Assembly (NCBI RefSeq): GCF_052324685.1
Contig: NW_027506908.1
Span: forward strand, 186,001 to 250,000
Direction: 5' to 3'
Origin: Brachyhypopomus gauderio
Taxonomy: Eukaryota; Chordata; Actinopteri; Gymnotiformes; Hypopomidae
DNA length: 64,000 nt
Shown here: positions 19,701 through 58,355 of the stretch, piece after piece
How positions within the stretch are numbered: position 1 is the first letter of the stretch
How the letters are laid out: every line of letters begins with the position of its first letter
The notes under the pieces: model-generated
The model's input: the letters and a program-made list of their open reading frames with translations, nothing else
Told to the model about the DNA's origin: nothing
Database searches by the model: none
Translations under genes and position numbers: made by a program

Positions 19701-20275
19701 GAACCTGATGTGGACTTAAACAGTAGGTGAAAAGAAAACTCTACATGACCAAACAGAATCTTACAGAATATTGCACATTAGTGTCACACCAATTACTGTT
19801 TAATGCTGACAATTTATTATGTACAGATGTTGTATTCAATGTGTCTTTGATTACCTTCATCTTCTAATGCTTGTTCTGTCCTCTGCTGTTCCGTTCGAGT
19901 TGTTCTCAAAAGGTATGGGTGGAAAAATGAAAAAGACCAAGTCATCCAAAACTCATAAAGAGTGAAAAATATAAAATGTCATTGCATCAATCATGATTCA
20001 GTAATAAAAATGTTGGTGTCCTGTATCACACTCTCTTCAATGTCTTTACCTTTTAGATATGACAAGGATTCTGCTGTCCATTTGGAACAACCTGATGTGG
20101 ACTCAAGCAGTAGGTGAAAAGAAAACTCTACATGACCAAACAGAATCTTACAGAATATTGCACACTAGTGTCACACCAATTACTGTTTAATGCGGACAAT
20201 TTATTATGTACACATGTTGTATTCAATGTCACATTGATTTCCTTTCTCTGCTGTTCCTTACGAGTTTTGCTCACA

Positions 20276-22770
20276 TATTATTTAACAGTATTAATTGAAT
20301 GTATTCATGCACAACACTGGAAACAAAGACAAGCAAAGCATAAGACCAAACACAGGGTATTTTAACATGGAAGTAAACTAGTCACACATAAAACCAATGA
20401 AGTTTGGAGTTATTACCAACAAGGGTGTGACACCTGAAATGAAAAAATAAAACACATGCAACACTAAAACTGGGATATGACTAATAGTTGGGGGCGGGCA
20501 AGGCTTAACATAGCGTTGCATTTCTTAAGTAATGGTCTACAAACCTCAAGATGATTGGCTCTAAAAACATATTCCAATGTCTATCCCACTTTGGCAACAG
20601 TGTTAAGTATGGTTTTAAAAAGTGACTGAATTGATATAGAATCTATTCACAGATGGAGAAATGTTACTAATCTAACCTTACTAATACTTTTTTGCTGTTG
20701 AATAGAAATAAAAACCTTTTTGTCATCATAAGGAAATTCAATGTTTGGTGAAACTCTTCAGAACATTAGAATATTACTTAAGAGAACATTACATAAACAT
20801 ACTCTTTCAAAAAATGCAGAACACTAAATGGCATTTATATTTTCTTTTCTTTCGTAGTCTGAATGACCATTCACTAAAGAGCATCTGTAATTAAAGCCCG
20901 TGGATTTTTATAGCGTTAATCAGCATTCATTCACTGCCATATTTTACTCACGTATTGTACTGCATTCAATGATTACCATTTTTTTGGTCTTCACAAGCTT
21001 CCTGCTTGCCGTACTGAGGCATTTTACTAGCGGTGGGCTCAAGCAGTCCGTGAAAACAAAATGATAACTAACCATTTTTAAAAAGCACATACCATAGGCT
21101 TCTCTAATTCTAACTACTTGACGATCATTTTAACTACTCGATTTAAACGACTCGAAAAGGCCGTCGATATCGTTTTGTGGCCGGTGTGCGATCGGTTTCA
21201 GATGTCGGTCGGTTTTCAGCATTCAAGAATTGTAAAGCGCGACGCCAACACAACATATCACAACATGTTGCTGTTTGAACCCAAACATTCTAGACATCTT
21301 CACCAGAGCCCAGTCGATCAGAACCACACACGTGTGATGTAGCTCGGGTATATAAAAACCCACATCTTCCCTCTGAGGTCTCCTGTTGATGTTTTTCGAT
21401 GGTTTTATTAATATCTCTTGGATAAGACATCGTAGCAACATGGTTCAAACATTTCCTGAGTCTATAAAACTCGCCCTTTAAATTTCGTCCAAAGTAGCAG
21501 TTACAAACCAATTAACATCCCTACACGTGATTGTAAATTCGTGTCATTAACTTTTAACATACAAACTCAAAAGAAGTGGTGGACATTTATTTTTTTATTA
21601 CAAAAAATAATGCTGTTGTATCACGTGTTGCCAGTGGCGAGTGAAATAATTATATTACTCGCAAATTAATATTTGTGGTCGCGATTGCGTCCATTTTAGT
21701 CGCAGTATGGAGCCCTGATAAACCGTTTCTTAGATGGTTCGTTAGTGCTACAACAAACTAACTAGCAATTTTCACGAGAGTGTTGTGAAAAATCTGCTAC
21801 CATCGATGTACCGTTGGCCAGTGATGGGACAAACGACACTGGTGTGTCAGCCATTGATCTACACTAATAATAGTAGTAATATACTATAGTATATATAGTA
21901 GTAATATATTAATAGTATTAATAATAATAGTAATATAGATCATTGGCGTCAGCACTGTCCGAGCGCACAAGAGTGAAACTTATTGGTGCGTGTATCGCTT
22001 TAAACACACGTGACCGATACAGGAAGTGTATCGTTTGGACGTGCAGCGCCAAATTGTGTTTATAAGGAAGCGAACTGTATCGCCATATCGCGGGTTTGTT
22101 GGATGGAGTTCAAAATACCTATGAGTGAAAATAGGTAAGCAAACTGATGACATTCACCTTGATAGTTTAGCTCGGTTGTATTCCTAACCAAATTGCACAG
22201 TAGCGGCGAGAACGAGTTTTTAAACCTGTTAATTACAAATCGTACGTGTGTTTATATGGATGCAGCCACGAAGTCGCCAGGTTTGCTTCATGGAAAATTC
22301 ATTTTTAAATACTAAATGTTGGCTTACATTTCAAATCTCATGTTTAGCTGAATAAACACGTTATCAACCCCTTTAAATGTACAGTAGGCTTACAAATTCA
22401 TGTTTGACTAAATATGCCCTCTTAAAGTATGTAGGCATACAGTACTATTTTCATGTTTAACTGAATAAACCTTTGAACACGTACATTTTATTGAGCTTTT
22501 TTTCTTTTCTTCAAGTATCAAAGTAGAACAGCTTCCTCAAGCAGTCATTGATGCAAATTGGAAACAGGAGATGAGCCCCTGGTCTAATGCACCCCCTGTA
22601 TTAAGAAACCCTATCTCAAAGACTGACTTTTAGTCATTACTTGGGTAGCACGCATATTCTGAATGAGCCATTTTAATCTAGATAAATTTCAAGATTTCAG
22701 TGAGATTAATCTAGTAAAAAAAATTTAATCTATGCCCACCCCTACTTTAAACCAAAGCAAAAATACTGAC
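20276..22770. other. Left-arm non-coding mosaic, no gene recognised
   Basis: No coding exon is recognisable here. Open frames near 21,118-21,511 overlap each other on both strands and show no family resemblance. Visible landmarks are: a satellite-like core at about 21,033-21,062 (CTCAAGCAGTCCGTGAAAAC); hAT-like terminal motifs (CCAGTGATGGGACAAACG near 21,820, and a GGAGCCCTGATAA end near 21,710); an AT-rich palindrome at 21,850-21,955; three diverged ~60-bp units carrying TCATGTTTAACTGAATAA-type motifs at about 22,310-22,480; and a block containing TAGATTAATCTCACTG in reverse near 22,690-22,745 of a type dispersed in fish genomes. It is probably a pile of decayed non-autonomous transposons. 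Confidence 0.6.
21850..21955. repeat. AT-rich near-palindrome (left arm)
   Basis: A roughly 100-bp tract of ACTAATAATAGTAGTAATA-type sequence with internal inverted symmetry around TATACTATAGTATATA. It is bounded by GCCATTGATCTA and the near inverse TAGATCATTGGC, so the strand can fold into a long AT hairpin. The mirrored copy is at about 56,635-56,735. Confidence 0.75.
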
Positions 22771-23015
22771 CAGGTCTTTCAGCTGCAGCATCCTGTGATG
22801 TTGAAGCTGCAGCTGAAGATGGATGCGATTCTCTGGAGATTACACTGGCACATTCAGAGGTGAGTCGTTTTATTGCTTCATCTGCCTTTGTTGGGCTAAA
22901 GAAACCAAGTGATTTGTACCTTGGGTCTAGTAGTGTTGCCAGTGACATAATGCTCATGCTTTGGATTTTGTCAAGCCTTTCCTTAAGGAGTCTGATGAGG
23001 TGCTCCCCCAGCTCC
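22771..23015 (-). pseudogene. hAT transposase 3' exon piece (left arm)
   Basis: Read on the minus strand this encodes a ZBED/hAT-type segment with ELGEHLIRLLKERLDKIQ, then LATLLDPRYKSLGFFSPTKA and a serine-rich stretch. The LLDPRYK motif and the preceding helix are typical of hAT transposases just before the C-terminal catalytic and dimerisation part. A donor-like GTCAGT follows the last codon. The final hATC dimerisation region was not found downstream, so the gene is truncated. The upstream hAT exons lie 8.5 kb away at 31,560-32,572, separated by a CACTA-like element whose CACTG terminus abuts this exon. Inactive. Confidence 0.8.
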
Positions 23016-23018
23016 CTA

Positions 23019-23820
23019 CACTGTAAAAAAATTTCAGGTTGGTTAAACTTACAAACTCAAGTTCACCTGCTGCCTTAAAAATGTGAGTAAACTCAACTTC
23101 ATTATAACCTTTGTTTCTACTCAGAATGGTAAGTTTTGGAAGTTGTTTAACTAATGATAAATTAGTTGTTTGAACTTGAAACAGAGAATTAGAATAACTT
23201 ACCATTTTACTGTAGTAATTCCCTACAATTGACTTTGTCTTGTCAAATATACACATAATTCCTCTTTATTTAGATTCATGCTTTCAAGTGAACTTAACTT
23301 CCAACTATATTCACAACTGCCATTTTAAAGTTAAGAACACTAATGCTTTTAAGTAGATTCTATTAAGATTTCTCATCTTGACTAAAAATGGCAAGTTTAC
23401 CAGTCAAATCCAGTGTTCACTTGTTTAGAAATATTAAATTTATTTGAATGAGGACATTACACATTACATAAAACGTGTATATTTCTAAACAATGCTTAGT
23501 GTTGACAATGCATTTCCTCCAAGTAAATGATTTGTGTTACTAAAACTTGAAGAACAATTGCATGCCATGTTTCTGCCTCTAAATCTCACGAGTTGCTCTG
23601 CACAAGCAAGCAGATTAACATCGACAAGGATTGAGAGCAAACAAATTAACAAAAATTTTAACGTCTCAACATTCAACAGTGCTTGCTTTTGATATGGTAA
23701 ATAAAAAGAATTTTGTACAGCAACAGTGTCCAACAGTGTGAGATGAAACAAAAATCTATTGTTTTCAACATTTTGTCAATATCACCCTCCCAGATGAGAC
23801 TTGGTGTGCAGCCAATCAAT
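23019..23820. other. 3' non-coding end of the CACTA-like element (left)
   Basis: This 800-bp stretch separates the SAMD3-like stop codon from the element terminus. It holds AT-rich sequence with subterminal repeats around TAAGTTTTGG/AACTTACC and no recognised protein. Two open frames of 88-100 codons are present but lack family resemblance and overlap the subterminal repeats. Confidence 0.55.
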
Positions 23821-25946
23821 CTATAAACAAAATCTCAGCAATTTATTTCTAAGTCCATGTACCCTTGCTGAACACTGGTCAGGGTTCATCTTCATGACGA
23901 CCTTCTGCAGGAATTCAGATGAGTACTTCATTTTGTGAGGGTACTGCAGATTAAGGCAGTAGATGGTGCCCATTAACATAGCAAAACCAGTGGGCACGTC
24001 TCTGATTTCATGAAGAACGACTGCCTCTTCTACCACCACAGCCACGTTGATAATTTCATGAAGGAAAGCATCATGCAGGACACCTTCATGTCCAATTAGA
24101 ATTCCAACACACTTTCCCTTCATGAGGACATCCAGGGTTTCACCATGAACCTAAAACAAATGCACAAATTTAGTTCTAATGTATCCTGACCTGCTACTTT
24201 ATTAAAACCACCTCCTTATTTCAGCTCCACTGATGTGTGCACTACTCTTTGACCATTTGAACATGGCTGTTTGTCATCTAACCAGACATACAACAGAAAT
24301 TTGACACAAAAACTTCAAAGTTTAAACACTGCCAACAACTATCCCAAACATTGCCAACTAGGGTTACTTGTTGGTTAAAATGCTTATAATGGAAGTACTT
24401 TTGAAGATAGTGATTAACTAGTCAGCTGAATTCTGAATGAATGCACCCATTATCTTAATGCATAAATATATTTTCTTACATCACACATCCTGATTATGTC
24501 AGAGGTGTCTTCTGACAAGAACAGTGGAAGACCAAGCAGGGCAGCCGTTCTTCTGTTCTGATTTGTGTCCTACATACAAAGAGAGACTGAGTAAATACAG
24601 TAATTAAACAAGATTCTTTAATGTAGTACATATTGTTAAGTACATTTTCATACGTACCTCCTTATTAAGGCACTGCATAACACTGCTAAGAGTCAACCTC
24701 CTGTTTGATGAGACAGCTGCTTTATAGAATTCCAAAAGACTTGACATCAAGGCATCCAGTCCATCCAGGAATGACTGGAGCAGGTCAGCAGTGACTATTC
24801 TACAGAACTCTGCCTTTATCTCAAACAGACGTATAAGACAGTAAACATGGGGTGATAAGAGTGTAAAAGTCTAGTAGAGTGTAAAGCAATAGCAAATGAA
24901 AATCTTACATATGAATTTACATATTAAAATTACATGTGATATTTTAACATTAACCAACAGATAATTTCTTTGTTCATCATCCTGTGGATGTATACTTACC
25001 TGTCTCTCATTAAACAATGCAGGCCATCTGTCCATAAGTTCAGAGATGAGTGGCTCATCCCCAATTATTTCCTTTCTTCGCTGAGATGATCACAGAAGAA
25101 GACCTCTAGAAGCATGGTCTTCTGTTTTTCCTCTGATATATCTGCACTTTGACCTTCAGGTGGATCTGGCAAGAAGTGAATCTCTCCCTTCTTTGACTTC
25201 TTGATTGCCTTGTGGTTGGTCTGCCCCTTCTTTCTCTTATTTACAAGAACCTCAGGGCATCCAGCTGCCATCAGTCTATGACGGTAATTGCCCATTTTGA
25301 ATTTCAAGCTGAATACCCAGCAATACCTTTGACAGAACCCGGCTCTCTGAGACTAGGGTGCTTTTCTACAAGAGCTGTGGCTACACTTTCATAGTGGTCT
25401 TTTCTTGGATAAGGAGTGATTTTGGAGATCATGTCAGCTAGTTTGTCAAGTATTTCACTCTTAACACTCTTGGAGATGGCCATCACTGTGCCATCTTTGG
25501 CACAGGCATCATTTGCTGCACTGAGCTGAAGTTCAACATCATGGGAGGAATCAGGAATAAGAAAAGGGTCAGGCCATTCCACTGAGGAAGCACTACTTGG
25601 GGAACTCAAGCTTGCAGTATCTAGTGTTGAGTCAGATACAGAACCAGAAAAAGTGAACAAAATTTTCAGTGTTGCTCGATCATTTGGTAGATCTTTGATA
25701 TCCGTCAAATTGCAGAGCTCATTTCCAAAGTCTGGATCTTCAAACTGTAAAATGAAGTTTCCTCGCAAAGCCCATATTTGTACGCAGTGCTTCACATAGG
25801 TCCTTTACCGAGTCAGGTACACTCTCTAGGGTGACACGCCTGATCTCTTGAGGTGAAACAATGACTCGAAGAAGCATCATGGAGGCACCAACAGCTATAA
25901 CAGTGTGACACAAAAGGAGAAAAAGTTGAAAATCTGTAACCAGCAT
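23821..25946 (-). pseudogene. SAMD3-like transposon-associated gene, broken (left)
   Basis: Multi-exon minus-strand gene resembling the large fish family annotated as sterile alpha motif domain-containing protein 3-like. In order: a PB1-like N-terminal part (about 25,700-25,900, LRVIVSPQEIRRVTLE then FEDPDFGNELCNLTDI), a linker, a conserved central block (25,065-25,500, with ITPYPRKDHYESVATAL and GNYRHRLMAAGCPEVL), a short exon near 25,020-25,080 (MDRWPALFNE), an exon near 24,655-24,830, one near 24,490-24,570, and a C-terminal exon at 23,821-24,150 (KGKCVGILIGHEGVLHDA). Both arms share frameshifts, for example in the PB1-like part and between TVMAIS and GNYRH, so the gene was broken before the inversion. 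The molecular function of this family is not established; its repeated association with transposase suggests cargo. Confidence 0.75.
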
Positions 25947-26076
25947 AAAATTAAACTATCATGAGTGAAGTGCATGGTCTTTAGTTAATATGGTGTATGA
26001 TTGTATTAGACCACCTGTGAGTTAAAACACACACAAAATTAATAATAATAAAAAGCAAGGATCTTTTTTCTGTACC

Positions 26077-27996
26077 TTACTGTATTATAAACGTCCTTGG
26101 AGTGACGAGCACCTTTCCATCAACAAGATATGCAGCAAGGGGGGTGTAGTCATTCAGCTGGTCAGGATCAACAACCACAGTTACTGCAGGAACTTTGATG
26201 TTGAGCTGGTAACACCTTAGATGCTCAACAAAGCCAGCTTCAAACATTTCAACAATGAAAAATATGTGGCCATCCACTAAACAGATCTCAAGCACTCTCC
26301 CAAGATCTGGTATTCCGCTTGTGTAGCCAACAGAGAGCACCTTTGGAATATTTTGTCCCACTTAAATAAGCTGTTGAGGTGAGTGAAACAGAGTCCAGGG
26401 CTTTAAACTTGTTTGAAATAGCCACGCTGATTGTAGCATCCAAGATGTTCACAGGTACAACAGATACTCGTCCCGTTTCGATGCTTGGTTTAAAAAGAGT
26501 TGGCATCTCCAAATATGCTAACATTAGTTGATGTCTTGTAGCCAAAGTGTGAAGAATATTTTTGAAGTTACCAGAATCACGAACCACCTTTTTAAAGAAA
26601 CAGTGTTTAGCCTCAAATCTCATAGTCCAAAATTCAATTAAGGGACCACATTTTTTTTTATTAGCATAGGGTAATGTTCCAAATAATGATGTTTAGCGTG
26701 CAATTTAGTACAAGGAAAAACTTCTAAAAGCAACTGTCGGTGGTCAGAAAATTTGGCTTGAAGGTAGCACAGGGTTTCTGTTGTGAACGAGGGGCTGCTT
26801 AACAACTCAACAATGTCTTTCAATTCAAGAATTAAATGCCAAGCCTTTTCACTTTCTGGAATGAGATGACCAACTAACAGTGGAAGAAATCTCAGAAGTG
26901 TCCAATTCTCATGTCCATTGCCACATATTGTTCCATTTTTTTGAAAGTTTGTTTGTATTGTCTGAGGTCTGTTAGTTTTGTCACAGAACTGAAAGGGGAA
27001 TGTTGTTATTCTGCAATTAAGATCATTCAATGTAAAATACCTCTTTGAAATCAGATGCCAGAGGCATATACAGAGTTCCACAGGTACAATTCCTTCTAAT
27101 GCATCATGAAGAAAATCAGGTGGAAATCCTTTTGTAGCATGAAAGTGTGTCAGTCTGTTTAAAGGACAGTCCTTCTTCACTCCATCAAAAGAAGTCAGAT
27201 CACTTTGTTTAAGCACCTTAACAGCTTCATCAAATGATTCTGGTGTTCTCAAGGTAAAAGCCCCACTTCTAACATCATAATGCTGAATATCAGCACGATT
27301 TGCCAAACAAAATCGGCACAACTTATCAACATTGAAAGACTCTTGAAATCCAGCAAGCGAGTGTACCCCCAGATTATCGGCAGATATGTACACAACAGTC
27401 CCTTTGACATGAGAGCCAACACTTTGAACACACACACCTTCTCTCTCAAGGAGCTTAAGATCCCTAATTAAGGGCTCTAAAACCTTGCTGTAACCATATT
27501 GTTTTATGTGTATGTTTTTGCACAATACAGCTAGATAAATTGATGATGTTGAGCGTAGTCTAATAGGTAAATTTGCAATCACCCAATATATAGCACAAAC
27601 TTTGTGCTTCTTTTTTGAAGTACCTAATGGATTACAAAGCTCAAAATCATCAATATATAGTCCAAGAGCTACACCTAATTCCTCAGAGAGAATTCTGTTT
27701 TCTTTAAAGTATTCTCCATCTTTAACTGAACAGTAATTGCCTTCTTGTTCACTGGATCTCTCAAGTGCCTTATTTCTCATTTCTTTCCAACAGTTTACTG
27801 AGCAAATCTAAAATAGGAACATAAACAAAAGTGTGCTTTTTTTCCTGTACATTTAACACATACTCGACTGGTTCAATAACAGTAAAATTCTTCCTATAAA
27901 ATGTCTGTCTTTTGCACTCTGTGCCAAGAGGACCCTGCCTTGAAAGCAATTTTAAGGGGTTCAAAGTTTGTAATTGTTCAATGATGCTACAACAGA
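26077..27996 (-). pseudogene. CACTA-like transposase, C-terminal two thirds, frameshifted (left)
   Basis: The longest frame is 26,638-27,780 (380 codons). It contains YISADNLGVHSLAGF near residues 131-145 (candidate catalytic Asp at 135), a CxxC pair at 155-158, and PDFLHDALEGIVPVELC at 221-237, which resembles the conserved D-H-E box of Tnp2/Transposase_21 type proteins. The frame is lost at a run of nine A (sense strand) near 26,650; the homologous protein continues out of frame at 26,288-26,623 and again at 26,077-26,361. Upstream sequence continues at 27,770-27,996 and, beyond the Tc1 insertion, at 29,325. In this arm the seven-A run near 26,940 is in frame, unlike the right arm. The Tc1 insertion alone would abolish function. 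Confidence 0.72.
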
Positions 27997-28033
27997 GGTG
28001 TCAGCTATGCAATTACTGTCTCTCAAAACGTTA

Positions 28034-29322
28034 CAGTGGGGAAAATAAGTATTTAGTCAGTCACCAATTGTGCAAGTTCTCCCACTTAAAAATATGAGAG
28101 GCCGGTAATTGACATCATAGGTAGACTATGAGAGACAAAATGTGAAAAAAAAAAATTGAGAAAATCATTTTGTCTGACGTTTAAAGAATTTATTTGCAAA
28201 TAATGGTGGAAAATAAGTATTTGGTCAATAACAAAAGTTCATCTCAATACTTTGTTGTATATCCTCTGTTGGCAATGACAGAGGTCAAATGTTTTCTGTA
28301 AGTCTTCACAAGGTTGGCACACACTGTTGCTGGTATGTTGGCCCATTCCTCCATGCAGATCTCCTCTAGAGCAGTGATGTTTTGGGGCTGTCGGCGGGCA
28401 ACACGGACTTTTAACTCCCTCCAAAGGTTTTCGATGGATGCAACTCAGCATTCACTGTCCTCCAAACACGACGAGTTATGTTTTTACCAAATAGTTCTAC
28501 TTTGGTTTCATCTGACCATATGACATTCTCCCAATACTCTTCTGGAACATCCAAATGCTCTCTAGCAAACTTCAGACGTGCCTGGATATGGACTGGCTTA
28601 AGCAGGGGGACACGTCTGGCACTGCAAGATCTGAGTCCCTGGCGTCGTAGTGTGTTGCTGATGGTAGCCTTTGTAACGTTGGTCCCAGCTTTCTGCAGGT
28701 CATTCACTAGATCCCCCCTTGTGGTTCTGGGATTTTTCCTCACCGTTCTTGTGATCATTTTGACCCCACGGGCTGAGATCTTGCGTGGAGCCCCAGATCG
28801 AGGGAGATTGGTAGTGGTCTTGTAGGTCTTCCATTTTCTGATTATTGCTCCCACAGTAGATTTCTTCACACCAAGCTGCTTGCCTATTGCAGATTCAGTC
28901 TTCCCAGCCTGGTGCAGGTCTACAATTCGGTTTGTAGAATTCTTTCGTCTTCACCATAGTGGAGTTTGGAGTGTGACTGTTTGAGGTTGTGGGCAGGTGT
29001 CTTTTATACTGTTAACAACTTCAAACAGGTGCCATTAATACAGGTAATGAGTGGGGGAAAGAGGAGCCTCTTAAAAAAGAAGTTACAGGTCTGTGACAGC
29101 CAGAAATCTTGCTTGTTTGTAGGTGACCAAATACTTATTTTCCACCATTATTTGCAAATAAAGTCTTTAAAAGTCAGACAAAATGATTTTCTCAATTTTT
29201 TTTCACATTTTGTCTCTCATAGTTGAGGTCTACCTATGATGTCAATTACAGGCCTCTCTCATCTTTTTAAGTGGGAGAACTTGCACAATTGGTGACTGAC
29301 CAAATACTTATTTTCCCCACTG
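28034..29322 (-). mobile_element. Tc1/mariner element with complete IR/DR ends (left)
   Basis: The 1,289-bp element starts CAGTGGGGAAAATAAGTA and ends with its inverse, flanked by TA on both sides (28,032-28,033 and 29,323-29,324). The terminal repeats are about 190 bp long, and each carries the motif GGAAAATAAGTATTTGGTC twice, once at the tip and once internally. This is the IR/DR arrangement of salmonid-type Tc1 elements. It interrupts the transposase gene of the CACTA-like element. The internal transposase is deleted, so it could move only in trans. Confidence 0.93.
28260..28957 (-). pseudogene. Tc1 transposase, internally deleted and N-terminally frameshifted (left)
   Basis: Start codon at 28,955-28,957 (MVKTKE). 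An indel right after codon 6 (AAAGAATTCTAC in place of a longer segment kept in the right arm) shifts the frame, leaving an open frame at 28,411-28,869 that begins inside the first helix-turn-helix. It retains the paired-like DNA-binding region and the first catalytic aspartate in [12 protein letters not shown]. After AELHP, about a third of the protein is missing: the second catalytic aspartate segment is gone and the sequence jumps to [15 protein letters not shown], out of frame. Full-length Tc1 transposases are about 340 residues. Non-functional. Confidence 0.9.
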
Positions 29323-29324
29323 TA

Positions 29325-29986
29325 TGTACAACAGTTTTAATATTTTGTTGGGTAAATTCTCCAATATCAATAATTTCTTGTATTGCTGAATTTGATACAT
29401 GCAAAATTGTTTGCATGCGAAGAAATAAACTTCCCAACTGATGCTCAATTACCTTTCCATTTTCAAGTCCATTCTCAATCTCTGCTGCAGAATCAAATGC
29501 AGTGTCAGTGTCGGAAACAAAATCCTCTTCTATTAAAGGCACAGGATGAATATTCTGTGCCAATAGCTCTGGTATGAAATTTTCTAAGGTGGAGAACTTC
29601 TATGTGCAGTAAAAGTCGACAGCACACTAGACTTAAAAGAACTCCCTGCAAACGGACATCTAACAACTTCTCTGTTTCTCAAATGAGTCTTCAGATGAGT
29701 GAAGTATTTGTTAATGTTGCTAGGCTCTGAGAATTTACACAAATCACAGGATAATTTGGCTACAGTCTTCTGTGATTCTATTGTATGTTCTTTCAAATGA
29801 ATTTTAAGTTCTGCTTGGGTCTGAAATGTTTTCAAACAGTCTGCATGAATACAGATGAAGCCTGAACACCTTCGGTAATGTCTGTGATGCTCTTTTTGTA
29901 GTGCTGTAGTATTCTTCCTTGACCATTAGTAGAGATTGCACAAAACTTACATTTCCACTTCATGAATGGGACATGCCTGAAAAAAT
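29325..29986 (-). pseudogene. C2H2-type N-terminal exon of the CACTA-like transposase (left)
   Basis: Acceptor-like TTGACAG precedes the exon start at 29,986. The first finger-like segment is KWKCKFC. A frameshift shared with the right arm then splits CSGLICIHADCLKTF from it. Two further C2H2-like units follow (LSCDLCKFSEPSNINKYF and VRCPFAGSSF). An acidic region (IEEDFVSDTDTAFDSAAE) leads into the transposase, where Tc1 interrupts it at 29,323. This arm keeps TTTTAAGTCTAGTGTGCTG in frame but lacks 13 bp, present in the right arm, after the last finger. N-terminal zinc fingers followed by this transposase type are common in fish repeat proteins; DNA or target recognition is inferred. Confidence 0.65.
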
Positions 29987-33330: not shown

Positions 33331-33334
33331 TGGA

Positions 33335-42074: not shown

Positions 42075-42076
42075 TA

Positions 42077-44750: not shown

Positions 44751-44759
44751 ATACCACAC

Positions 44760-46682: not shown

Positions 46683-47473
46683 CAGTGGTTCCCAAACTTT
46701 TTCTGCCGTGCCCCCCTTTAGTAGATGAGAATATTTTTGCGCCCCCCCCCCCCCCCCCCCCCCCCATATTGACTAGGGATGTGTTGAAAACTTACAAAAA
46801 CAATAGGTTCACAACTTTGGTCAAACATGAAAAAAATTAACTGCAAGAAACATTTTAAATGGTTCAAGAATTCTAAATGTAATTTAAAATAAATAAGGAG
46901 ATGAAATAAGAGAAACAGCAATACATATGCGGCTAGTTTGCAAGCGCAGACATCACGCAGAGCACAAAGCATGTAACGGCCAGAAATATGTGTACTGTCT
47001 CTTTAAGGGAGCGAGTTGAGCGTGCGTATGGAATATTGTTTTTTTAGCTTTCCGCCGTAGACCGAGTCAGACCACTGCTCTTTAATTTATTTCTGTAAGT
47101 AACGCATTAAATGAGCTTTGGACAACTCACCAGTTCATGTATGAACAGTGAAGTATTGCTGGAGCCCAGGTTTATTTTGGTCAACCAGCAAATAAACGGA
47201 CTAAGTGGAATACCACCAGCGCGAGTATTAGGGTTGAACTAACTCCGAAAAGCAAGCAATACAAGCATATAATTAGAGTGAATAGATCTGTTTTTATGGT
47301 TCGGTCACATTGTCCCCGATACCCGATCTAGAATTTTTTCAGATATTAATATCGGAATCGGTGCATCCCTAATATTGACACATGTGCACGTTTTACTTTC
47401 AAGCTCCGCGCCCCCCCCTGCAATAGCTCCGCGCCCCACCTAGGGGGCGCGCCCCCCACTTTGGGAACCACTG
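46683..47473. mobile_element. hAT MITE with 8-bp TSD, private to the right arm
   Basis: A 791-bp insertion with ends CAGTGGTTCCCAAACTTTTT and CACTTTGGGAACCACTG and an exact 8-bp duplication ATTTAACT at 46,675-46,682 and 47,474-47,481. The left arm at about 31,391-31,400 has a single uninterrupted copy of the target. It contains a run of about 25 C (46,741-46,765) and no transposase. Confidence 0.97.
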
Positions 47474-47481
47474 ATTTAACT

Positions 47482-48683: not shown

Positions 48684-49353
48684 ATTTTTTCAGGCATGTC
48701 CCATTCATGAAGTGGAAATGTAAGTTTTGTGCAATCTCTACTAATGGTCAAGGAAGAATACTACAGCACTACAAAAAGAGCATCACAGACATTACCGAAG
48801 GTGTTCAGGCCTCATCTGTATTCATGCAGACTGTTTGAAAACATTTCAAACCCAAGCAGAACTTAAAATTCATTTGAAAGAACATACAATAGAATCACAG
48901 AAGACTGTAGCCAAATTATCCTGTGATTTGTGTAAATTCTCAGAGCCTAGCAACATTAACAAATACTTCACTCATCTGAAGACTCATTTGAGAAACAGAG
49001 AAGTTGTTAGATGTCCATTTGCAGGGAGTTCTTTTAAGTGTGCTGTCGACTTTTACTGCACATAGAAGTCGTAATCATAAGTTCTCCACCTTAGAAAATT
49101 TCATACCGGAGCTATTGGCACAGAATATTCATCCTGTGCCTTTAATAGAAGAGGATTTTGTTTCCGACACTGACACTGCATTTGATTCTGCAGCAGAGAT
49201 TGAGAATGGACTTGAAAATGGAAAGGTAATTGAGCATCAGTTGGGAAGTTTATTTCTTCGCATGCAAACAATTTTGCATGTATCAAATTCAGCAATACAA
49301 GAAATTATTGATATTGGAGAATTTACCCAACAAAATATTAAAACTGTTGTACA
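48684..49353 (+). pseudogene. C2H2-type N-terminal exon of the CACTA-like transposase (right)
   Basis: Starts after TTGACAG with FFRHVPFMKWKCKFC, is frameshifted after LQHYK, resumes with CIHADCLKTFQTQAELKIHL in another frame, and keeps LSCDLCKFSEPSNINKYF. It has lost five bases in the last finger (TTTTAAGTGTGCTG), which frameshifts it, but retains 13 bases (CGTAATCATAAGT region) missing in the left arm. It ends in an acidic stretch at the Tc1 insertion. Confidence 0.65.
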
Positions 49354-49355
49354 TA

Positions 49356-50590
49356 CAGTGGGCAAAATAAGTATTTGGTCAGTCACCAATTGTGCAAGTT
49401 CTCCCACTTAAAAAGATGAGAGAGGCCTGTAATTGACATCATAGGTAGACTATGAGAGACAAAATGTGAAAAAAAATTGAGAAAATCATTTTGTCTGACT
49501 TTTAAAGACTTTATTTGCAAATAATGGTGGAAAATAAGTATTTGGTCACCTACAAACAAGCAAGATTTCTGGCTGTCACAGACCTGTAACTTCTTTTTTA
49601 AGAGGCTCCTCTTTCCCCCACTCATTACCTGTATTAATGGCACCTGTTTGAAGTCGTTAACAGTATAAAAGACACCTGCCCACAACCTCAAACAGTCACA
49701 CTCCAAACTCCACTATGGTGAAGACGAAAGAGCTGTCGGAGGACACCAGAAACCGAATTGTAGACCTGCACCAGGCTGGGAAGACTGAATCTGCAATAGG
49801 CAAGCAGCTTGGTGTGAAGAAATCTACTGTGAGAGCAATAATCAGAAAATGGAAGACCTACAAGACCACTACCAATCTCCCTCGATCTGGGGCTCCACGC
49901 AAGATCTCAGCCCGTGGGGTCAAAATGATCACAAGAACGGTGAGGAAAAATCCCAGAACCACAAGGGGGGATCTAGTGAATGACCTGCAGAAAGCTGGGA
50001 CCAACGTTACAAAGGCTACCATCAGCAACACACTACGACGCCAGGGACTCAGATCTTGCAGTGCCAGACGTGTCCCCCTGCTTAAGCCAGTCCATATCCA
50101 GGCACGTCTGAAGTTTGCTAGAGAGCATTTGGATGTTCCAGAAGAGTATTGGGAGAATGTCATATGGTCAGATGAAACCAAAGTAGAACTATTTGGTAAA
50201 AACATAACTCGTTGTGTTTGGAGGACAGTGAATGCTGAGTTGCATCCATCGAAAACCTTTGGAGGGAGTTAAAAGTCCGTGTTGCCCGCCGACAGCCCCA
50301 AAACATCACTGCTCTAGAGGAGATCTGCATGGAGGAATGGGCCAACATACCAGCAACAGTGTGTGCCAACCTTGTGAAGACTTACAGAAAACATTTGACC
50401 TCTGTCATTGCCAACAGAGGATATACAACAAAGTATTGAGATGAACTTTTGTTATTGACCAAATACTTATTTTCCACCATTATTTGCAAATAAATTCTTT
50501 AAACGTCAGACAAAATGATTTTCTCAATTTTTTTTTTTTTTCCACATTTTGTCTCTCATAGTCTACCTATGATGTCAATTACCGGCCTCT
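49356..50590 (+). mobile_element. Tc1/mariner element lacking its 3' tip (right)
   Basis: The 5' TIR begins CAGTGGGCAAAATAAGTATT after TA at 49,354-49,355. The inner IR/DR motif is present at both ends, but the outer 3' repeat is cut at CCGGCCTCT, where host sequence GTTGTAGCATC resumes. 103 bp seen in the left arm, including the outer DR, are missing, so this copy cannot be mobilised normally. Confidence 0.93.
49715..50440 (+). pseudogene. Tc1 transposase with internal deletion (right)
   Basis: ATG at 49,715. The first 185 codons are open: [20 protein letters not shown] begins the paired-like helix-turn-helix region, a GRPR-like linker is represented by [10 protein letters not shown], and the first catalytic Asp is at about residue 153 in [11 protein letters not shown]. 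After AELHP a deletion removes the central catalytic part with the second Asp. The C-terminal part ([19 protein letters not shown] to RGYTTKY) persists in another frame, including the Glu of the DDE triad. The N-terminus is intact here, unlike in the left copy. Confidence 0.92.
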
Positions 50591-52509
50591 GTTGTAGCAT
50601 CATTGAACAATTACAAACTTTGAACCCCTTAAAATTGCTTTCAAGGCAGGGTCCTCTTGGCACAGAGTGCAAAAGACAGACATTTTATAGGAAGAATTTT
50701 ACTGTTATTGAACCAGTCGAGTATGTGTTAAATGTACAGGAAAAAAAGCACACTTTTGTTTATGTTCCTATTTTAGATTTGCTCAGTAAACTGTTGGAAA
50801 GAAATGAGAAATAAGGCACTTGAGAGATCCAGTGAACAAGAAGGCAATTACTGTTCAGTTAAAGATGGAGAATACTTTAAAGAAAACAGAATTCTCGCTG
50901 AGGAATTAGGTGTAGCTCTTGGACTATATATTGATGATTTTGAGCTTTGTAATCCATTAGGTACTTCAAAAAAGAAGCACAAAGTTTGTGCTATATATTG
51001 GGTGATTGCAAATTTACCTATTAGACTACGCTCAACATTATCATCAATTTATCTAGCTGTATTGTGCAAAAACATACACATAAAACAATATGGTTACAGC
51101 AAGGTTTTAGAGCCCTTAATTAGGGATCTTAAGCTCCTTGAGAGAGAAGGTGTGTGTGTTCAAAGTGTTGGCTCTCATGTCAAAGGGACTGTTTTGTACA
51201 TATCTGCCGATAATCTGGGGGTACACTCGCTTGCTGGATTTCAAGAGTCTTTCAATGTTGATAAGTTGTGCCAATTTTGTTTGACAAATCGTGCTGATAT
51301 TCAGCATTATGATGTTAGAAGTGGGGCTTTTACCTTGAGAACACCAGAATCATTTGATGAAGCTGTTAAGGTGCTTAAACAAAGTGATCTGACTTCTTTT
51401 GATGGAGTGAAGAAGGACTGTCCTTTAAACAGACTGACACACTTTCATGCTACAAAAGGATTTCCACCTGATTTTCTTCATGATGCATTAGAAGGAATTG
51501 TACCTGTGGAACTCTGTATATGCCTCTCGCATCTGATTTCAAAGAGGTATTTTACATTGAATGATCTTAATTGCAGAATAACAACATTCCCCTTTCAGTT
51601 CTGTGACAAAACTAACAGACCTCAGACAATACAAACAAACTTTCAAAAAAAATGGAACAATAGGTGGCAATGGACATGAGAATTGGACACTTCTGAGATT
51701 TCTTCCACTGTTAGTTGGTCATCTCATTCCAGAAAGTGAAAAGGCTTGGCATTTAATTCTTGAATTGAAAGACATTGTTGAGTTGTTAAGCAGCCCCTCG
51801 TTCACAACAGAAACCCTGTGCTACCTTCAAGCCAAATTTTCTGACCACCGACAGTTGCTTTTAGAAGTTTTTCCTTGTACTAAATTGCACCCTAAACATC
51901 ATTATTTGGAACATTACCCTATGCTAATAAAAAAATGTGGTCCCTTAATTGAATTTTGGACTATGAGATTTGAGGCTAAACACTGTTTCTTTAAAAAGGT
52001 GGTTCGTGATTCTGGTAACTTCAAAAATATTCTTCACACTTTGGCTACAAGACATCAACTAATGTTAGCATATTTGGAGATGCCAACTCTTTTTAAACCA
52101 AGCATCGAAACGGGACGAGTATCTGTTGTACCTGTGAACATCTTGGATGCTACAATCAGCGTGGCTATTTCAAACAAGTTTAAAGCCCTGGACTCTGTTT
52201 CACTCACCTCAACAGCTTATTTAAGTGGGACAAAATATTCCAAAGGTGCTCTCTGTTGGCTACACAAGCGGAATACCAGATCTTGGGAGAGTGCTTGAGA
52301 TCTGTTTAGTGGATGGCCACATATTTTTCATTGTTGAAATGTTTGAAGCTGGCTTTGTTGAGCATCTAAGGTGTTACCAGCTCAACATCAAAGTTCCTGC
52401 AGTAACTGTGGTTGTTGATCCTGACCAGCTGAATGACTACACCCCCCTTGCTGCATATCTTGTTGATGGAAAGGTGCTCGTCACTCCAAGGACGTTTATA
52501 ATACAGTAA
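50591..52509 (+). pseudogene. CACTA-like transposase, C-terminal two thirds, frameshifted (right)
   Basis: The coding sequence resumes after Tc1 with LNPLKLLSRQGPLGTECKRQ. A second open block, 50,804-51,679 (291 codons), carries ISADNLGVHSLAGF and DFLHDALEGIVPVELC. An eight-A run near 51,645 (seven in the left arm) breaks the frame; it continues in 51,603-52,298, which reads through the seven-A run that is nine A on the left. The last part (VLSVGYTSGIPDLGRVLEI to VTPRTFIIQ, ending 52,506) is in yet another frame in both arms. Confidence 0.72.
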
Positions 52510-52639
52510 GGTACAGAAAAAAGATCCTTGCTTTTTATTATTATTAATTTTGTGTGTGTTTTAACTCACAGGTGGTCTAATACAATCATACACCATATTA
52601 ACTAAAGACCATGCACTTCACTCATGATAGTTTAATTTT

Positions 52640-54765
52640 ATGCTGGTTACAGATTTTCAACTTTTTCTCCTTTTGTGTCACACTGTTATAGCTGTTGGTG
52701 CCTCCATGATGCTTCTTCGAGTCATTGTTTCACCTCAAGAGATCAGGCGTGTCACCCTAGAGAGTGTACCTGACTCGGTAAAGGACCTATGTGAAGCACT
52801 GCGTACAAATATGGGCTTTGCGAGGAAACTTCATTTTACAGTTTGAAGATCCAGACTTTGGAAATGAGCTCTGCAATTTGACGGATATCAAAGATCTACC
52901 AAATGATCGAGCAACACTGAAAATTTTGTTCACTTTTTCTGGTTCTGTATCTGACTCAACACTAGATACTGCAAGCTTGAGTTCCCCAAGTAGTGCTTCC
53001 TCAGTGGAATGGCCTGACCCTTTTCTTATTCCTGATTCCTCCCATGATGTTGAACTTCAGCTCAGTGCAGCAAATGATGCCTGTGCCAAAGATGGCACAG
53101 TGATGGCCATCTCCAAGAGTGTTAAGAGTGAAATACTTGACAAACTAGCTGACATGATCTCCAAAATCACTCCTTATCCAAGAAAAGACCACTATGAAAG
53201 TGTAGCCACAGCTCTTGTAGAAAAGCACCCTAGTCTCAGAGAGCCGGGTTCTGTCAAAGGTATTGCTGGGTATTCAGCTTGAAATTCAAAATGGGCAATT
53301 ACCATCATAGACTGATGGTAGCTGGATGCCCTGAGGTTCTTGTAAATAAGAGAAAGAAGGGGCAGACCAACCACAAGGCAATCAAGAAGTCAAAGAAGGG
53401 AGAGATTCACTTCTTGCCAGATCCACCTGAAGGTCAAAGTGCAGATATATCAGAGGAAAAACAGAAGACCATGCTTCTAGAGGTCTTCTTCTGTGATCAT
53501 CTCAGCGAAGAAAGGAAATAATTGGGGATGAGCCACTCATCTCTGAACTTATGGACAGATGGCCTGCATTGTTTAATGAGAGACAGGTAAGTATACATCC
53601 ACAGGATGATGAACAAAGAAATTATCTGTTGGTTAATGTTAAAAGATCACATGTAATTTTAATATGTAAATTCATATGTAAGATTTTCATTTGCTATTGC
53701 TTTACACTCTACTAGACTTTTACACTCTTATCACCCCATGTTTACTGTCTTATACGTCTGTTTGAGATAAAGGCAGAGTTCTGTAGAATAGTCACTGCTG
53801 ACCTGCTCCAGTCATTCCTGGATGGACTGGATGCCTTGATGTCAAGTCTTTTGGAATTCTATAAAGCAGCTGTCTCATCAAACAGGAGGTTGACTCTTAG
53901 CAGTGTTATGCAGTGCCTTAATAAGGAGGTACGTATGAAAATGTACTTAACAATATGTACTACATTAAAGAATCTTGTTTAATTACTGTATTTACTCAGT
54001 CTCTCTTTGTATGTAGGACACAAATCAGAACAGAAGAACGGCTGCCCTGCTTGGTCTTCCACTGTTCTTGTCAGAAGACACCTCTGACATAATCAGGATG
54101 TGTGATGTAAGAAAATATATTTATGCATTAAGATAATGGGTGCATTCATTCAGAATTCAGCTGACTAGTTAATCACTATCTTCAAAAGTACTTCCATTAT
54201 AAGCATTTTAACCAACAAGTAACCCTAGTTGGCAATGTTTGGGATAGTTGTTGGCAGTGTTTAAACTTTGAAGTTTTTGTGTCAAATTTCTGTTGTATGT
54301 CTGGTTAGATGACAAACAGCCATGTTCAAATGGTCAAAGAGTAGTGCACACATCAGTGGAGCTGAAATAAGGAGGTGGTTTTAATAAAGTAGCAGGTCAG
54401 GATACATTAGAACTAAATTTGTGCATTTGTTTTAGGTTCATGGTGAAACCCTGGATGTCCTCATGAAGGGAAAGTGTGTTGGAATTCTAATTGGACATGA
54501 AGGTGTCCTGCATGATGCTTTCCTTCATGAAATTATCAACGTGGCTGTGGTGGTAGAAGAGGCAGTCGTTCTTCATGAAATCAGAGACGTGCCCACTGGT
54601 TTTGCTATGTTAATGGGCACCATCTACTGCCTTAATCTGCAGTACCCTCACAAAATGAAGTACTCATCTGAATTCCTGCAGAAGGTCGTCATGAAGATGA
54701 ACCCTGACCAGTGTTCAGCAAGGGTACATGGACTTAGAAATAAATTGCTGAGATTTTGTTTATAG
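52640..54765 (+). pseudogene. SAMD3-like transposon-associated gene, broken (right)
   Basis: Mirror of the left copy. The PB1-like part is at 52,693-52,930. The central block spans 52,791-53,282 (SVKSEILDKLADMISKITPY) and 53,279-53,521 (RLMVAGCPEVLVNKRKKGQT). Further exons are at about 53,755-53,930 (IKAEFCRIVTADLLQSFLDG), 54,017-54,108 and 54,436-54,765 (RDVPTGFAMLMGTIYCLNLQ). A few substitutions distinguish it from the left (for example HHRLMV against RHRLMA). Shared frameshifts show that it was inactive before duplication. Confidence 0.75.
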
Positions 54766-55567
54766 ATTGATTGGCTGCACACCAAGTCTCATCTGGGAGG
54801 GTGATATTGACAAAATGTTGAAAACAATAGATTTTTGTTTCATCTCACACTGTTGGACACTGTTGCTGTACAAAATTCTTTTTATTTACCATATCAAAAG
54901 CAAGCACTGTTGAATGTTGAGACGTTAAAATTTTTGTTAATTTGTTTGCTCTCAATCCTTGTCGATGTTAATCTGCTTGCTTGTGCAGAGCAACTCGTGA
55001 GATTTAGAGGCAGAAACATGGCATGCAATTGTTCTTCAAGTTTTAGTAACACAAATCATTTACTTGGAGGAAATGCATTGTCAACACTAAGCATTGTTTA
55101 GAAATATACACGTTTTATGTAATGTGTAATGTCCTCATTCAAATAAATTTAATATTTCTAAACAAGTGAACACTGGATTTGACTGGTAAACTTGCCATTT
55201 TTAGTCAAGATGAGAAATCTTAATAGAATCTACTTAAAAGCATTAGTGTTCTTAACTTTAAAATGGCAGTTGTGAATATAGTTGGAAGTTAAGTTCACTT
55301 GAAAGCATGAATCTAAATAAAGAGGAATTATGTGTATATTTGACAAGACAAAGTCAATTGTAGGGAATTACTACAGTAAAATGGTAAGTTATTCTAATTC
55401 TCTGTTTCAAGTTCAAACAACTAATTTATCATTAGTTAAACAACTTCCAAAACTTACCATTCTGAGTAGAAACAAAGGTTATAATGAAGTTGAGTTTACT
55501 CACATTTTTAAGGCAGCAGGTGAACTTGAGTTTGTAAGTTTAACCAACCTGAAATTTTTTTACAGTG
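54766..55567. other. 3' non-coding end of the CACTA-like element (right)
   Basis: AT-rich sequence between the SAMD3-like stop and the terminal ACAGTG. The inverted motifs AATGGTAAGTT (about 55,380) and AACTTACCATT (about 55,452) are subterminal repeats. Open frames at 54,835 and 55,330 have no family resemblance. Confidence 0.55.
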
Positions 55568-55570
55568 TAG

Positions 55571-55815
55571 GGAGCTGGGGGAGCACCTCATCAGACTCCT
55601 TAAGGAAAGGCTTGACAAAATCCAAAGCATGAGCATTATGTCACTGGCAACACTACTAGACCCAAGGTACAAATCACTTGGTTTCTTTAGCCCAACAAAG
55701 GCAGATGAAGCAATAAAACGACTCACCTCTGAATGTGCCAGTGTAATCTCCAGAGAATCGCATCCATCTTCAGCTGCAGCTTCAACATCACAGGATGCTG
55801 CAGCTGAAAGACCTG
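55571..55815 (+). pseudogene. hAT transposase 3' exon piece (right)
   Basis: Encodes ELGEHLIRLLKERLDKIQ and LATLLDPRYKSLGF, followed by a serine/alanine-rich tail and a GTCAGT donor. It is the continuation of the hAT gene interrupted at about 46,525. No hATC domain follows; the next sequence is an unrelated dispersed repeat starting TAGGGGTGGGCATAGATT. Confidence 0.8.
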
Positions 55816-58355
55816 GTCAGTATTTTTGCTTTGGTTTAAAGTAGGGGTGGGCATAGATTAAATTTTTTTTACTAGATTAATCTCACTGAAATCTTGAAAT
55901 TTATCTAGATTAAAATGGCTCATTCAGAATATGCGTGCTACCCAAGTAATGACTAAAAGTCAGTCTTTGAGATAGGGTTTCTTAATACAGGGGGTGCATT
56001 AGACCAGGGGCTCATCTCCTGTTTCCAATTTGCATCAATGACTGCTTGAGGAAGCTGTTCTACTTTGATACTTGAAGAAAAGAAAAAAAGCTCAATAAAA
56101 TGTACGTGTTCAAAGGTTTATTCAGTTAAACATGAAAATAGTACTGTATGCCTACATACTTTAAGAGGGCATATTTAGTCAAACATGAATTTGTAAGCCT
56201 ACTGTACATTTAAAGGGGTTGATAACGTGTTTATTCAGCTAAACATGAGATTTGAAATGTAAGCCAACATTTAGTATTTAAAAATGAATTTTCCATGAAG
56301 CAAACCTGGCGACTTCGTGGCTGCATCCATATAAACACACGTACGATTTGTAATTAACAGGTTTAAAAACTCGTTCTCGCCGCTACTGTGCAATTTGGTT
56401 AGGAATACAACCGAGCTAAACTATCAAGGTGAATGTCATCAGTTTGCTTACCTATTTTCACTCATAGGTATTTTGAACTCCATCCAACAAACCCGCGATA
56501 TGGCGATACAGTTCGCTTCCTTATAAACACAATTTGGCGCTGCACGTCCAAACGATACACTTCCTGTATCGGTCACGTGTGTTTAAAGCGATACACGCAC
56601 CAATAAGTTTCACTCTTGTGCGCTCGGACAGTGCTGACGCCAATGATCTATATTACTATTATTATTAATACTATTAATATATTACTACTATATATACTAT
56701 AGTATATTACTACTATTATTAGTGTAGATCAATGGCTGACACACCAGTGTCGTTTGTCCCATCACTGGCCAACGGTACATCGATGGTAGCAGATTTTTCA
56801 CAACACTCTCGTGAAAATTGCTAGTTAGTTTGTTGTAGCACTAACGAACCATCTAAGAAACGGTTTATCAGGGCTCCATACTGCGACTAAAATGGACGCA
56901 ATCGCGACCACAAATATTAATTTGCGAGTAATATAATTATTTCACTCGCCACTGGCAACACGTGATACAACAGCATTATTTTTTGTAATAAAAAAATAAA
57001 TGTCCACCACTTCTTTTGAGTTTGTATGTTAAAAGTTAATGACACGAATTTACAATCACGTGTAGGGATGTTAATTGGTTTGTAACTGCTACTTTGGACG
57101 AAATTTAAAGGGCGAGTTTTATAGACTCAGGAAATGTTTGAACCATGTTGCTACGATGTCTTATCCAAGAGATATTAATAAAACCATCGAAAAACATCAA
57201 CAGGAGACCTCAGAGGGAAGATGTGGGTTTTTATATACCCGAGCTACATCACACGTGTGTGGTTCTGATCGACTGGGCTCTGGTGAAGATGTCTAGAATG
57301 TTTGGGTTCAAACAGCAACATGTTGTGATATGTTGTGTTGGCGTCGCGCTTTACAATTCTTGAATGCTGAAAACCGACCGACATCTGAAACCGATCGCAC
57401 ACCGGCCACAAAACGATATCGACGGCCTTTTCGAGTCGTTTAAATCGAGTAGTTAAAATGATCGTCAAGTAGTTAGAATTAGAGAAGCCTATGGTATGTG
57501 CTTTTTAAAAATGGTTAGTTATCATTTTGTTTTCACGGACTGCTTGAGCCCACCGCTAGTAAAATGCCTCAGTACGGCAAGCAGGAAGCTTGTGAAGACC
57601 AAAAAAATGGTAATCATTGAATGCAGTACAATACGTGAGTAAAATATGGCAGTGAATGAATGCTGATTAACGCTATAAAAATCCACGGGCTTTAATTACA
57701 GATGCTCTTTAGTGAATGGTCATTCAGACTACGAAAGAAAAGAAAATATAAATGCCATTTACTGTTCTGCATTTTTTGAAAGAGTATGTTATGTAATGTT
57801 CTCTTAAGTAATATTCTAATGTTCTGAAGAGTTTCACCAAACATTGAATTTCCTTATGATGACAAAAAGGTTTTTATTTCTATTCAACAGCAAAAAAGTA
57901 TTAGTAAGGTTAGATTAGTAACATTTCTCCATCTGTGAATAGATTCTATATCAATTCAGTCACTTTTTAAAACCATACTTAACACTGTTGCCAAAGTGGG
58001 ATAGACATTGGAATATGTTTTTAGAGCCAATCATCTTGAGGTTTGTAGACCATTACTTAAGAAATGCAACGCTATGTTAAGCCTTGCCCGCCCCCAACTA
58101 TTAGTCATATCCCAGTTTTAGTGTTGCATGTGTTTTATTTTTTCATTTCAGGTGTCACACCCTTGTTGGTAATAACTCCAAACTTCATTGGTTTTATGTG
58201 TGACTAGTTTACTTCCATGTTAAAATACCCTGTGTTTGGTCTTATGCTTTGCTTGTCTTTGTTTCCAGTGTTGTGCATGAATACATTCAATTAATACTGT
58301 TAAATAATATGTGAGCAAAACTCGTAAGGAACAGCAGAGAAAGGAAATCAATGTG
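55816..58355. other. Right-arm non-coding mosaic
   Basis: Mirror of 20,231-22,770. Landmarks in order: GGGGTGGGCATAGATTAA repeat (55,850), three diverged TTATTCAGNTAAACATGA units (56,110-56,260), the AT palindrome (56,635-56,735), hAT-like ends TTGTCCCATCACTGG (56,755) and CAGGGCTCCATACTGCGAC (56,868), and the satellite-like core GTTTTCACGGACTGCTTGAG (57,530). No gene is recognised. Confidence 0.6.
56635..56735. repeat. AT-rich near-palindrome (right arm)
   Basis: Mirror of the left-arm tract, with TATATACTATAGTATATTAC at its centre. It appears unchanged between arms as far as I can compare. Confidence 0.75.

Follow-up and report, generated by a model that had tools for sequence, protein, structure and literature searches.

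Satellite arrays that switch orientation have been described in several genomes, and the join itself is hard to read where both of its sides consist of the same repeat. In Tribolium, changes of monomer orientation give satellite arrays a mirror symmetry on the kb scale, and the available text on these macro-dyad symmetries describes inversion sites conserved between copies along with varying side lengths (PMC13081366), as we find at the present locus from the knifefish Brachyhypopomus gauderio. The two systems also differ: ours is a vertebrate case with one satellite, its axis is a truncated cassette of host-gene and transposon pieces where Tribolium has diverged monomers, and two copies of the junction stand against thousands (PMC13081366). 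The Tribolium type as described there further has (peri)centromeric chromatin among its criteria (PMC13081366). Primate alpha-satellite arrays likewise contain large orientation changes, with reoriented monomers at the breakpoints in the accessible part of that study, whereas the breakpoint described here interrupts a gene exon carried by a cassette within the satellite (PMC11062924). Ampliconic palindromes of apes are defined, in the section available, by arms of at least 8 kb, at least 98% identity, a spacer of at most 500 kb and less than 80% repetitive content (PMC11168930).

At the knifefish locus a host-gene exon allows the breakpoint to be placed with single-base precision. Two probable descendants of one join are open to comparison, and from the arms it can be seen where copies did and did not exchange sequence. 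The origin and spread of satellite mirror symmetry is thereby made testable in a vertebrate. No satellite study of the species was among the literature matches listed for B. gauderio, for Brachyhypopomus with satellite (8 of 378 matches), or for sidt2 with cep164, and nothing related was found in the literature on a 387-bp fish satellite.

Anatomy of the palindrome and its satellite flanks

The window, that is the whole stretch of 64,000 nucleotides analysed (contig C64:186001-250000), was read as assembled with the assembly taken on trust, and the genome searched comprised 796.5 Mb. BLAST and alignment recovered the two inverted, near-identical arms reported by the first-pass annotation and confirmed its figure of 8,975 bp for the spacer (Table 1). 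Aligned to each other, the arms show 74 substitutions over 13,853 aligned positions; of their 25 gaps, the largest measure 799, 223 and 103 bp, and two lie at ends of aligned stretches. The match is too long to be due to chance. Identity by BLAST is 99.77% in the outer 7.76 kb of the arms, and 97.5%, 97.7% and 94% in the inner pieces with gaps counted. If identity is taken over aligned bases, arms and spacer fall within the ape-type limits on arm length, identity and spacer; with gaps counted, the inner BLAST pieces reach only 94-97.7%, against the 98% demanded.

Both arms run outward into one common satellite in opposite orientations, as had been described, the period measured by TRF being 387 bp instead of 386 bp. 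The spacer was thought to be unique, which does not hold throughout: one part is 3.1 satellite units in the orientation of the left array, and a probe of 1.2 kb taken from the other 7.8 kb finds six full-length matches in the genome. The symmetric unit had also been taken as open-ended, and this had to be given up. Monomer pairs in mirror register beyond the arms have a mean identity of 96.90% (11 pairs, the register being strict only for the first 7) against 96.86% (SD 1.08) for all 429 left by right pairs, monomers outside 380-390 bp having been dropped (6 of 45 intervals on the left, 2 of 13 on the right). A mirror comparison in fixed steps into the satellites gave 88.8-98.2% over 11 steps. 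With in-register identity equal to background, mirror symmetry continuing into the satellites is ruled out, and beyond the arms the mirroring is one of orientation only.

The earlier view of a palindrome with satellite borders, made of transposon remnants and gene fragments, was supported. Its arm is one end of a cassette of ~22 kb, in which transposon remnants are found along with broken sidt2 and cep164 pieces and which is embedded in satellite on contigs C64 and C7. We denote the outer part of the cassette A and the non-satellite part of the spacer U; arm homology stops at 34688, inside a sidt2 exon. Two exons were matched to PDB chains (SIDT2 and CEP164), the cep164 exon presumably being the WW-region, and the remaining exon pieces of U we take, from their reading frames, to be sidt2 and cep164. 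The transposase-like ORF of the left arm had no Pfam match of its own and 217 protein matches; the best 120 of these are mostly unnamed, with the named ones mostly from fishes, and include one with PF02992 and four with PF18759. The search for RNA genes gave no Rfam family at gathering score and no tRNA.

Table 1. Features of the window, in window positions
Feature	Position	Strand	Evidence or remark
387-bp satellite array, called (+)	1..20230	+	TRF row 1-20244: period 387, 52.4 copies, 96% matches
Left palindrome arm, outer part (A) of full cassette A-U	20231..34688	+	BLAST, arm alignment
Transposase-like ORF, left arm	26638..27780	-	Mirror pieces 50804-51679, 51603-52298
Tc1-type transposase remnant, left arm	28411..28869	-	Pfam HTH_Tnp_Tc3_2, E=1.9e-24; mirror ORF 49715-50272
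ORF with sidt2 exon	34642..34914	-	SIDT2 chains in PDB, best E=8.3e-15
U, non-satellite part of spacer; sidt2 exon pieces (-), cep164 exon pieces (+)	34689..42465	.	Probe 38600-39800
ORF with cep164 exon	37157..37552	+	CEP164 chains in PDB, best E=6.2e-10
3.1 satellite units between full and truncated cassettes	42466..43663	+	TRF, BLAST
Inner junction, satellite(+) / truncated A(-)	43385..44012	+	Breakpoint 43663/43664; 628 bp identical at second C64 site
Right palindrome arm: A(-), a truncated and inverted copy of the cassette	43664..58355	-	BLAST, arm alignment
387-bp satellite, opposite orientation, with 421-bp variant units	58356..64000	-	TRF, monomer comparison

The inner junction at two sites

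In the right arm, the cassette copy has been cut within the sidt2 exon and joined to satellite of the opposite orientation. Searched with up to 2 mismatches allowed, a 45-mer of this junction has two sites in the genome, both exact (C64:229642 and C64:1138287) and ~0.9 Mb apart. The identical sequence across the junction extends over 628 bp at both, 279 bp of them satellite. At each site U is absent from the truncated cassette copy, and the left-hand satellite is (+), the right-hand satellite (-). Full and truncated cassettes are 1.2 kb apart in the window and ~60.5 kb apart at the other site. In the genome we see a satellite array that switches polarity, and the window looks palindromic because its full cassette lies so close to a truncated inverted copy. 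In one reading by eye the join has 4 bp of microhomology (TATT) and 3 extra bases. An inverted copy has thus been joined without long homology and with the adjoining segment lost, in keeping with the fold-back type.

We consider it probable that the axis of the array is an inverted junction of fold-back type, later duplicated and resized. The cassette A-U would have been embedded once in the satellite and then copied with the array, after which a fold-back type event may have joined satellite(+) to the middle of the sidt2 exon of an inverted cassette copy, with satellite(+) - A-U - satellite(+) / A(-) - satellite(-) as its product. The junction would later have been duplicated along with its neighbours, unequal exchange may have resized the satellite between full and truncated cassettes to the two lengths now seen, and the outer ~6 kb of both arms would have been homogenised, most simply by gene conversion.

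The join might instead have been made by the assembly, as a fold-back or a haplotype-switch misjoin within the repeat, since C64 is a contig of 1.27 Mb, repeat-rich in the samples taken, and parts of it match C7 as if allelic. The arms, however, differ by the substitutions and gaps counted above, and the identical junction recurs on the contig with a different spacing. This weakens the worry about a fold-back artefact, and we regard a misjoin as unlikely.

Opposite satellite orientations face each other across the axis in the window, at the second C64 site and on C7, as in a macro-dyad. Three (+) to (-) switches were located, all with cassette pieces: two on C64, which have a conserved inversion site in common, and one in the interval 28.388-28.512 Mb of C7. 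The 45-mer search did not find the junction on C7, where the polarity change sits in a stretch read in part; the C7 axis therefore arose otherwise or lost the junction. Neither of the two (-) to (+) changes that were bracketed on C64 had a match to the arm or spacer probe. It seems doubtful that the cassette is a nucleation site for the mirror symmetry of the array. If it were, a dyad axis born once could spread across a vertebrate satellite block via copying of the junction, and arm-to-arm exchange would preserve the likeness of the arms; this would parallel the conserved inversion sites of Tribolium satellites.

Mosaic arms and other cassette copies

Left and right arm differ at 4 of 6269 positions over 20,231-26,500 (0.06%) and at 36 of 6160 over 26,501-33,000 (0.58%). 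Using 29 informative sites in 5 complete copies, a permutation of the mosaic breakpoint with all borders scanned gave p=0.0046; a Fisher test gave p=0.0007 with its border at 26,500 set after the sites had been seen. Sites beyond 33,000 (a variable tandem repeat) were left out, as was the partial copy at C64:1249 kb, the latter from the informative-site test only and kept in the pairwise counts. A 2.6-kb end alignment of one copy was not used, its differences being inflated relative to the full alignment. All 15 copy pairs are less different outside than inside, and the two window arms have the lowest outer/inner ratio among them. The inner part of the left arm is nearest a C7 copy (17/6479), and that of the right arm (26,501-33,000) is closest to the C64:1249-kb copy (19/4819); the truncated copy with the same junction differs from the latter arm at 47/6179, and three further copies are also nearer. 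As the inner parts differ in their nearest relatives, the present arms are probably not simple products of one event. Shared descent is visible only at the junction and close around it, so that we have to assume later exchange among copies. The mosaic pattern suggests arm-to-arm conversion. Just outside the arms, the first satellite monomer is not homogenised between them (97.2% identity).

In the available text, ape X and Y palindromes too have long, highly identical inverted arms that bear signs of gene conversion (PMC11168930), and the locus could be an ampliconic sex-chromosome palindrome in which conversion between the arms protects their genes. In arm length, substitution identity and spacer it conforms to the ape definition in that text (PMC11168930), the mosaic arms suggest conversion, and B. 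gauderio has X1X1X2X2/X1X2Y sex chromosomes according to the accessible part of PMC3833772. Set against the ape palindromes as described there, though, the gene content recognised here consists of pieces only, namely exon pieces and transposase remnants, and satellite forms the flanks (PMC11168930); moreover, this layout recurs at the second site, where ~60.5 kb of satellite separates the cassettes. We hold a sex-chromosome palindrome of this kind to be very unlikely.

For the outer 1 kb of the arm, 9 matches with a rounded identity of 100% were listed, on C64 and C7, and at the outer cassette edges seen the satellite has one orientation relative to A in nine of nine cases. In view of these edges, and of the identical truncated end at two sites, we reject the idea that the arm is a mobile element in its own right, inserted both ways. 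The full-length matches of the spacer probe all have an A partner in matching orientation (6/6), and hence U was never seen as an orphan; in this test, 40 out of 6827 candidates were scored. In one split C7 cassette the U tail (window 40150-41260; C7:28,394,209) lies ~100 kb from the rest, and there is a separate sidt2 piece at C7:28,011,504-28,012,378 with 95-96% identity.

A polarity switch and a truncated cassette would also result if part of the array had undergone a balanced inversion, one breakpoint falling in a cassette and nothing being duplicated, and the two C7 pieces just named are indeed U pieces apart from A. Such an inversion nevertheless predicts an orphan U at its reciprocal breakpoint, whereas every full-length probe match has its A; the split tail supplies the end that a C7 cassette lacks, and the sidt2 piece, diverged by 4-5%, is too different to be the reciprocal end, given the identity of the junction over 628 bp. 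We regard a balanced inversion as very unlikely. Two A-only copies are claimed. A third candidate, at C7 28,388,796, was dropped, as the arm match covers the first 1.67 of the 2.66 kb read and the next 13 kb were unread. Two C64 cassette edges match two on C7 at 99.5-100% over three satellite monomers, so some copies may be alleles.

The host-gene part of the cassette would most likely have come from the sidt2/cep164 neighbourhood on contig C16. A relative lies there at C16:11,993,466-11,996,032, with three pieces of 91-92% and one short piece of 85% identity, at a distance of 14.5 kb from cep164-like copies.

The palindrome and its cassette

The genome searched comprised 796.5 Mb in 840 contigs, with the window at C64:186001-250000. 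The two arms are mutually inverted copies, separated by a spacer that consists of a non-satellite part (U, 7.8 kb) and a short satellite stretch. The outer 7.76 kb of the arms are 99.77% identical, while the inner pieces reach 97.5%, 97.7% and 94% with gaps counted. Over 13,853 aligned positions they show 74 mismatches. The alignment also holds 25 gaps, of which two are end effects and the largest measure 799, 223 and 103 bp. In arm length, substitution identity and spacer the structure agrees with the definition of ape palindromes in the available text of PMC11168930.

Features of the palindrome, its satellite and related loci; (+) is the orientation of the left satellite array, (-) the opposite, and A the arm part of the cassette
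Feature	Location	Detail
Left array	window 1-20,230	387-bp period, 52.4 units
Left arm	window 20,231-34,688
U	window 34,689-42,465
cep164-like exon piece	window ~40,700-41,260	within U
Spacer satellite	window 42,466-43,663	3.1 units, (+)
Right arm	window 43,664-58,355
Junction, window	C64:229,642	exact
Junction, second site	C64:1,138,287	exact
Insertions (three)	C64:1,119,215-1,134,061	~1.07 kb each
Non-satellite samples	C64 1, 30 and 90 kb
Satellite(-)	C64 60.6-61 kb
Satellite(+)	C64 120-206 kb	then window palindrome
Satellite(-)	C64 to at least 270 kb	after window palindrome
Satellite(+)	C64 from 776 kb	then second site, then satellite(-) up to contig end
Satellite(+)	C7 28.02-28.3886 Mb	one non-satellite sample (28.28)
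Polarity change	C7 28.388-28.512 Mb	read in part; 1.67-kb A piece, U tail, cassette end
Satellite(-)	C7 from 28.512 Mb	non-satellite samples 28.62, 28.72, 28.82; satellite(-) 28.92 to at least 29.20
~790-bp tandem repeat	C7:28,404,000-28,413,999; C64 390-510 kb (samples)	between satellite blocks
sidt2 relative	C16:11,993,466-11,996,032	three pieces 91-92%, fourth short piece 85%
sidt2 relative	C7:28,011,504-28,012,378	95-96%
cep164-like copies	C16:11,785,797-11,978,969	spacing 25.4-25.5 kb over five copies, thereafter 27-33 kb
cep164-like copies	C141:18,405-64,602	spacing ~15.2 kb
cep164-like copies	C22:110,835-2,272,182	two such proteins named uncharacterized
Outlying 387-bp satellite	C1:48,998,130-49,061,267	small cluster, 22 motif matches, another large contig

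The right array runs opposite to the left one, and some of its units measure 421 bp. Outside the arms, 11 monomer pairs in mirror register average 96.90% identity (units outside 380-390 bp dropped, register strict for the first seven pairs), against a mean of 96.86% (SD 1.08) for all 429 left by right monomer pairs. A fixed-step mirror comparison gave 88.8-98.2%, and the first monomer outside the arms is 97.2% identical between the sides, without homogenisation. The first-pass annotation had left the symmetric unit open-ended; mirror symmetry stops at the arm ends, and beyond them orientation alone is mirrored. Within the left array a higher-order shift of about 10 units (3,857 bp) is visible, and 26 of 741 monomer pairs are identical. 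A conserved 42-mer of the satellite had 2655 exact matches; the listed ones, which run as far as part of C7, lie on C1 (22), C2 (1) and C7. With permissive scoring, the outer arm edge gave weak satellite matches at 20231-20273 and 20910-21074 (28 bp, 89%; 167 bp, 59%); this border of the cassette may thus consist of degenerate satellite.

Nine matches to the outermost 1 kb of the arm are listed as 100% (five on C64, four on C7), along with seven weaker ones; at one of the nine, C7:28,388,796, the arm match is limited to the first 1.67 kb in the part read. The spacer probe had six full-length matches, three on each of the same contigs (40 of 6827 candidates scored), and beside all six lies an arm partner in matching orientation, hence the basic unit is a cassette of about 22 kb, A-U, inside satellite. 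Satellite orientation relative to A is constant at all nine outer edges seen. A contains a Tc1-type remnant and a transposase-like ORF with fish relatives, and U a sidt2 exon (SIDT2 match, best E=8.3e-15), a cep164 exon (CEP164 match, best E=6.2e-10) and further putative exon pieces, named from their reading frames.

The host-gene part of the cassette is likely to come from C16. The sidt2 piece has relatives there and on C7 (40 of 71 candidates scored), the latter about 8 kb outside the first C7 satellite motif. The cep164-like copies on C16 (96%; 40 of 74 candidates scored) reach to 14.5 kb from the sidt2 relative. The cep164-like exon piece is also amplified elsewhere at 96-97% (the same 40 of 74).

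Inner junction and second site

The cassette copy that forms the right arm breaks off within the sidt2 exon, where it is fused to satellite of opposite orientation; by eye, one reading of the join is 4-bp microhomology with three extra bases. The junction 45-mer, allowing up to two mismatches in the searchable genome, was found in two places, and identity spanning the junction at both is 628 bp, of which 279 are satellite. The second site repeats the order of the window: satellite(+), A-U, satellite(+), A(-), satellite(-). The satellite between A-U and A(-), the inverted truncated copy, is about 60.5 kb including the three insertions, and the satellite(-) extends 75.6 kb to a full inverted cassette. 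The insertions are near-identical, with inverted ends of about 350 bp and the same position in the satellite unit, like a MITE carried along during array duplication.

Probable exchange among copies

Among five complete copies, 29 informative sites lie below 33,000. The left arm equals the right at seven of nine in 20,231-26,500 and at two of 20 in 26,501-33,000, which places a mosaic break between 25,059 and 26,697 (p=0.0046 by permutation across all borders; a Fisher test with the border chosen after the sites were seen gives p=0.0007). The arms differ at 4/6269 positions outside and 36/6160 inside. All 15 copy pairs differ less outside than inside, the ratio being lowest for the left/right pair. 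For the inside part, the copy closest to the left arm is one on C7 (17/6479); for the right arm it is the copy at 1249 kb of C64 (19/4819), not the junction-sharing copy (47/6179). From these sequences we read the mosaic as probable arm-to-arm conversion combined with older exchange among copies; exchange with an unsampled copy is a possible alternative.

Known systems and contig layout

The inverted junction in this fish satellite block is real, recurrent and unusual in its base-level readability, and the window structure is a variant within a type already described. Closest to it is the macro-dyad symmetry described for satellites of Tribolium, where inversion sites are conserved; according to its authors, in the available text, this symmetry had been documented in Tribolium alone (PMC13081366). 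A later paper on Edessa bugs also uses the term. Inversions are known in primate alpha-satellite arrays as well (PMC11062924, available text). B. gauderio carries X1X1X2X2/X1X2Y sex chromosomes, and heterochromatin near all centromeres with some interstitial and telomeric blocks (PMC3833772, whose available text places neither C7 nor C64); heterochromatin is listed as centromeric in PMC5867350, which likewise does not place them.

The layout of C64 and C7 was based on 25 and 15 samples, respectively, along with stretches read directly. Satellite was absent from 12 samples at 310-750 kb of C64. In the C7 stretch that contains the polarity change, one cassette is split, with about 100 kb between its U tail and the remainder. 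Two C64 cassette edges match two C7 edges at 99.5-100% across three satellite monomers, as would be expected of alleles or recent duplicates; should C64 represent a second haplotype, the palindrome in the window may be confined to that haplotype.
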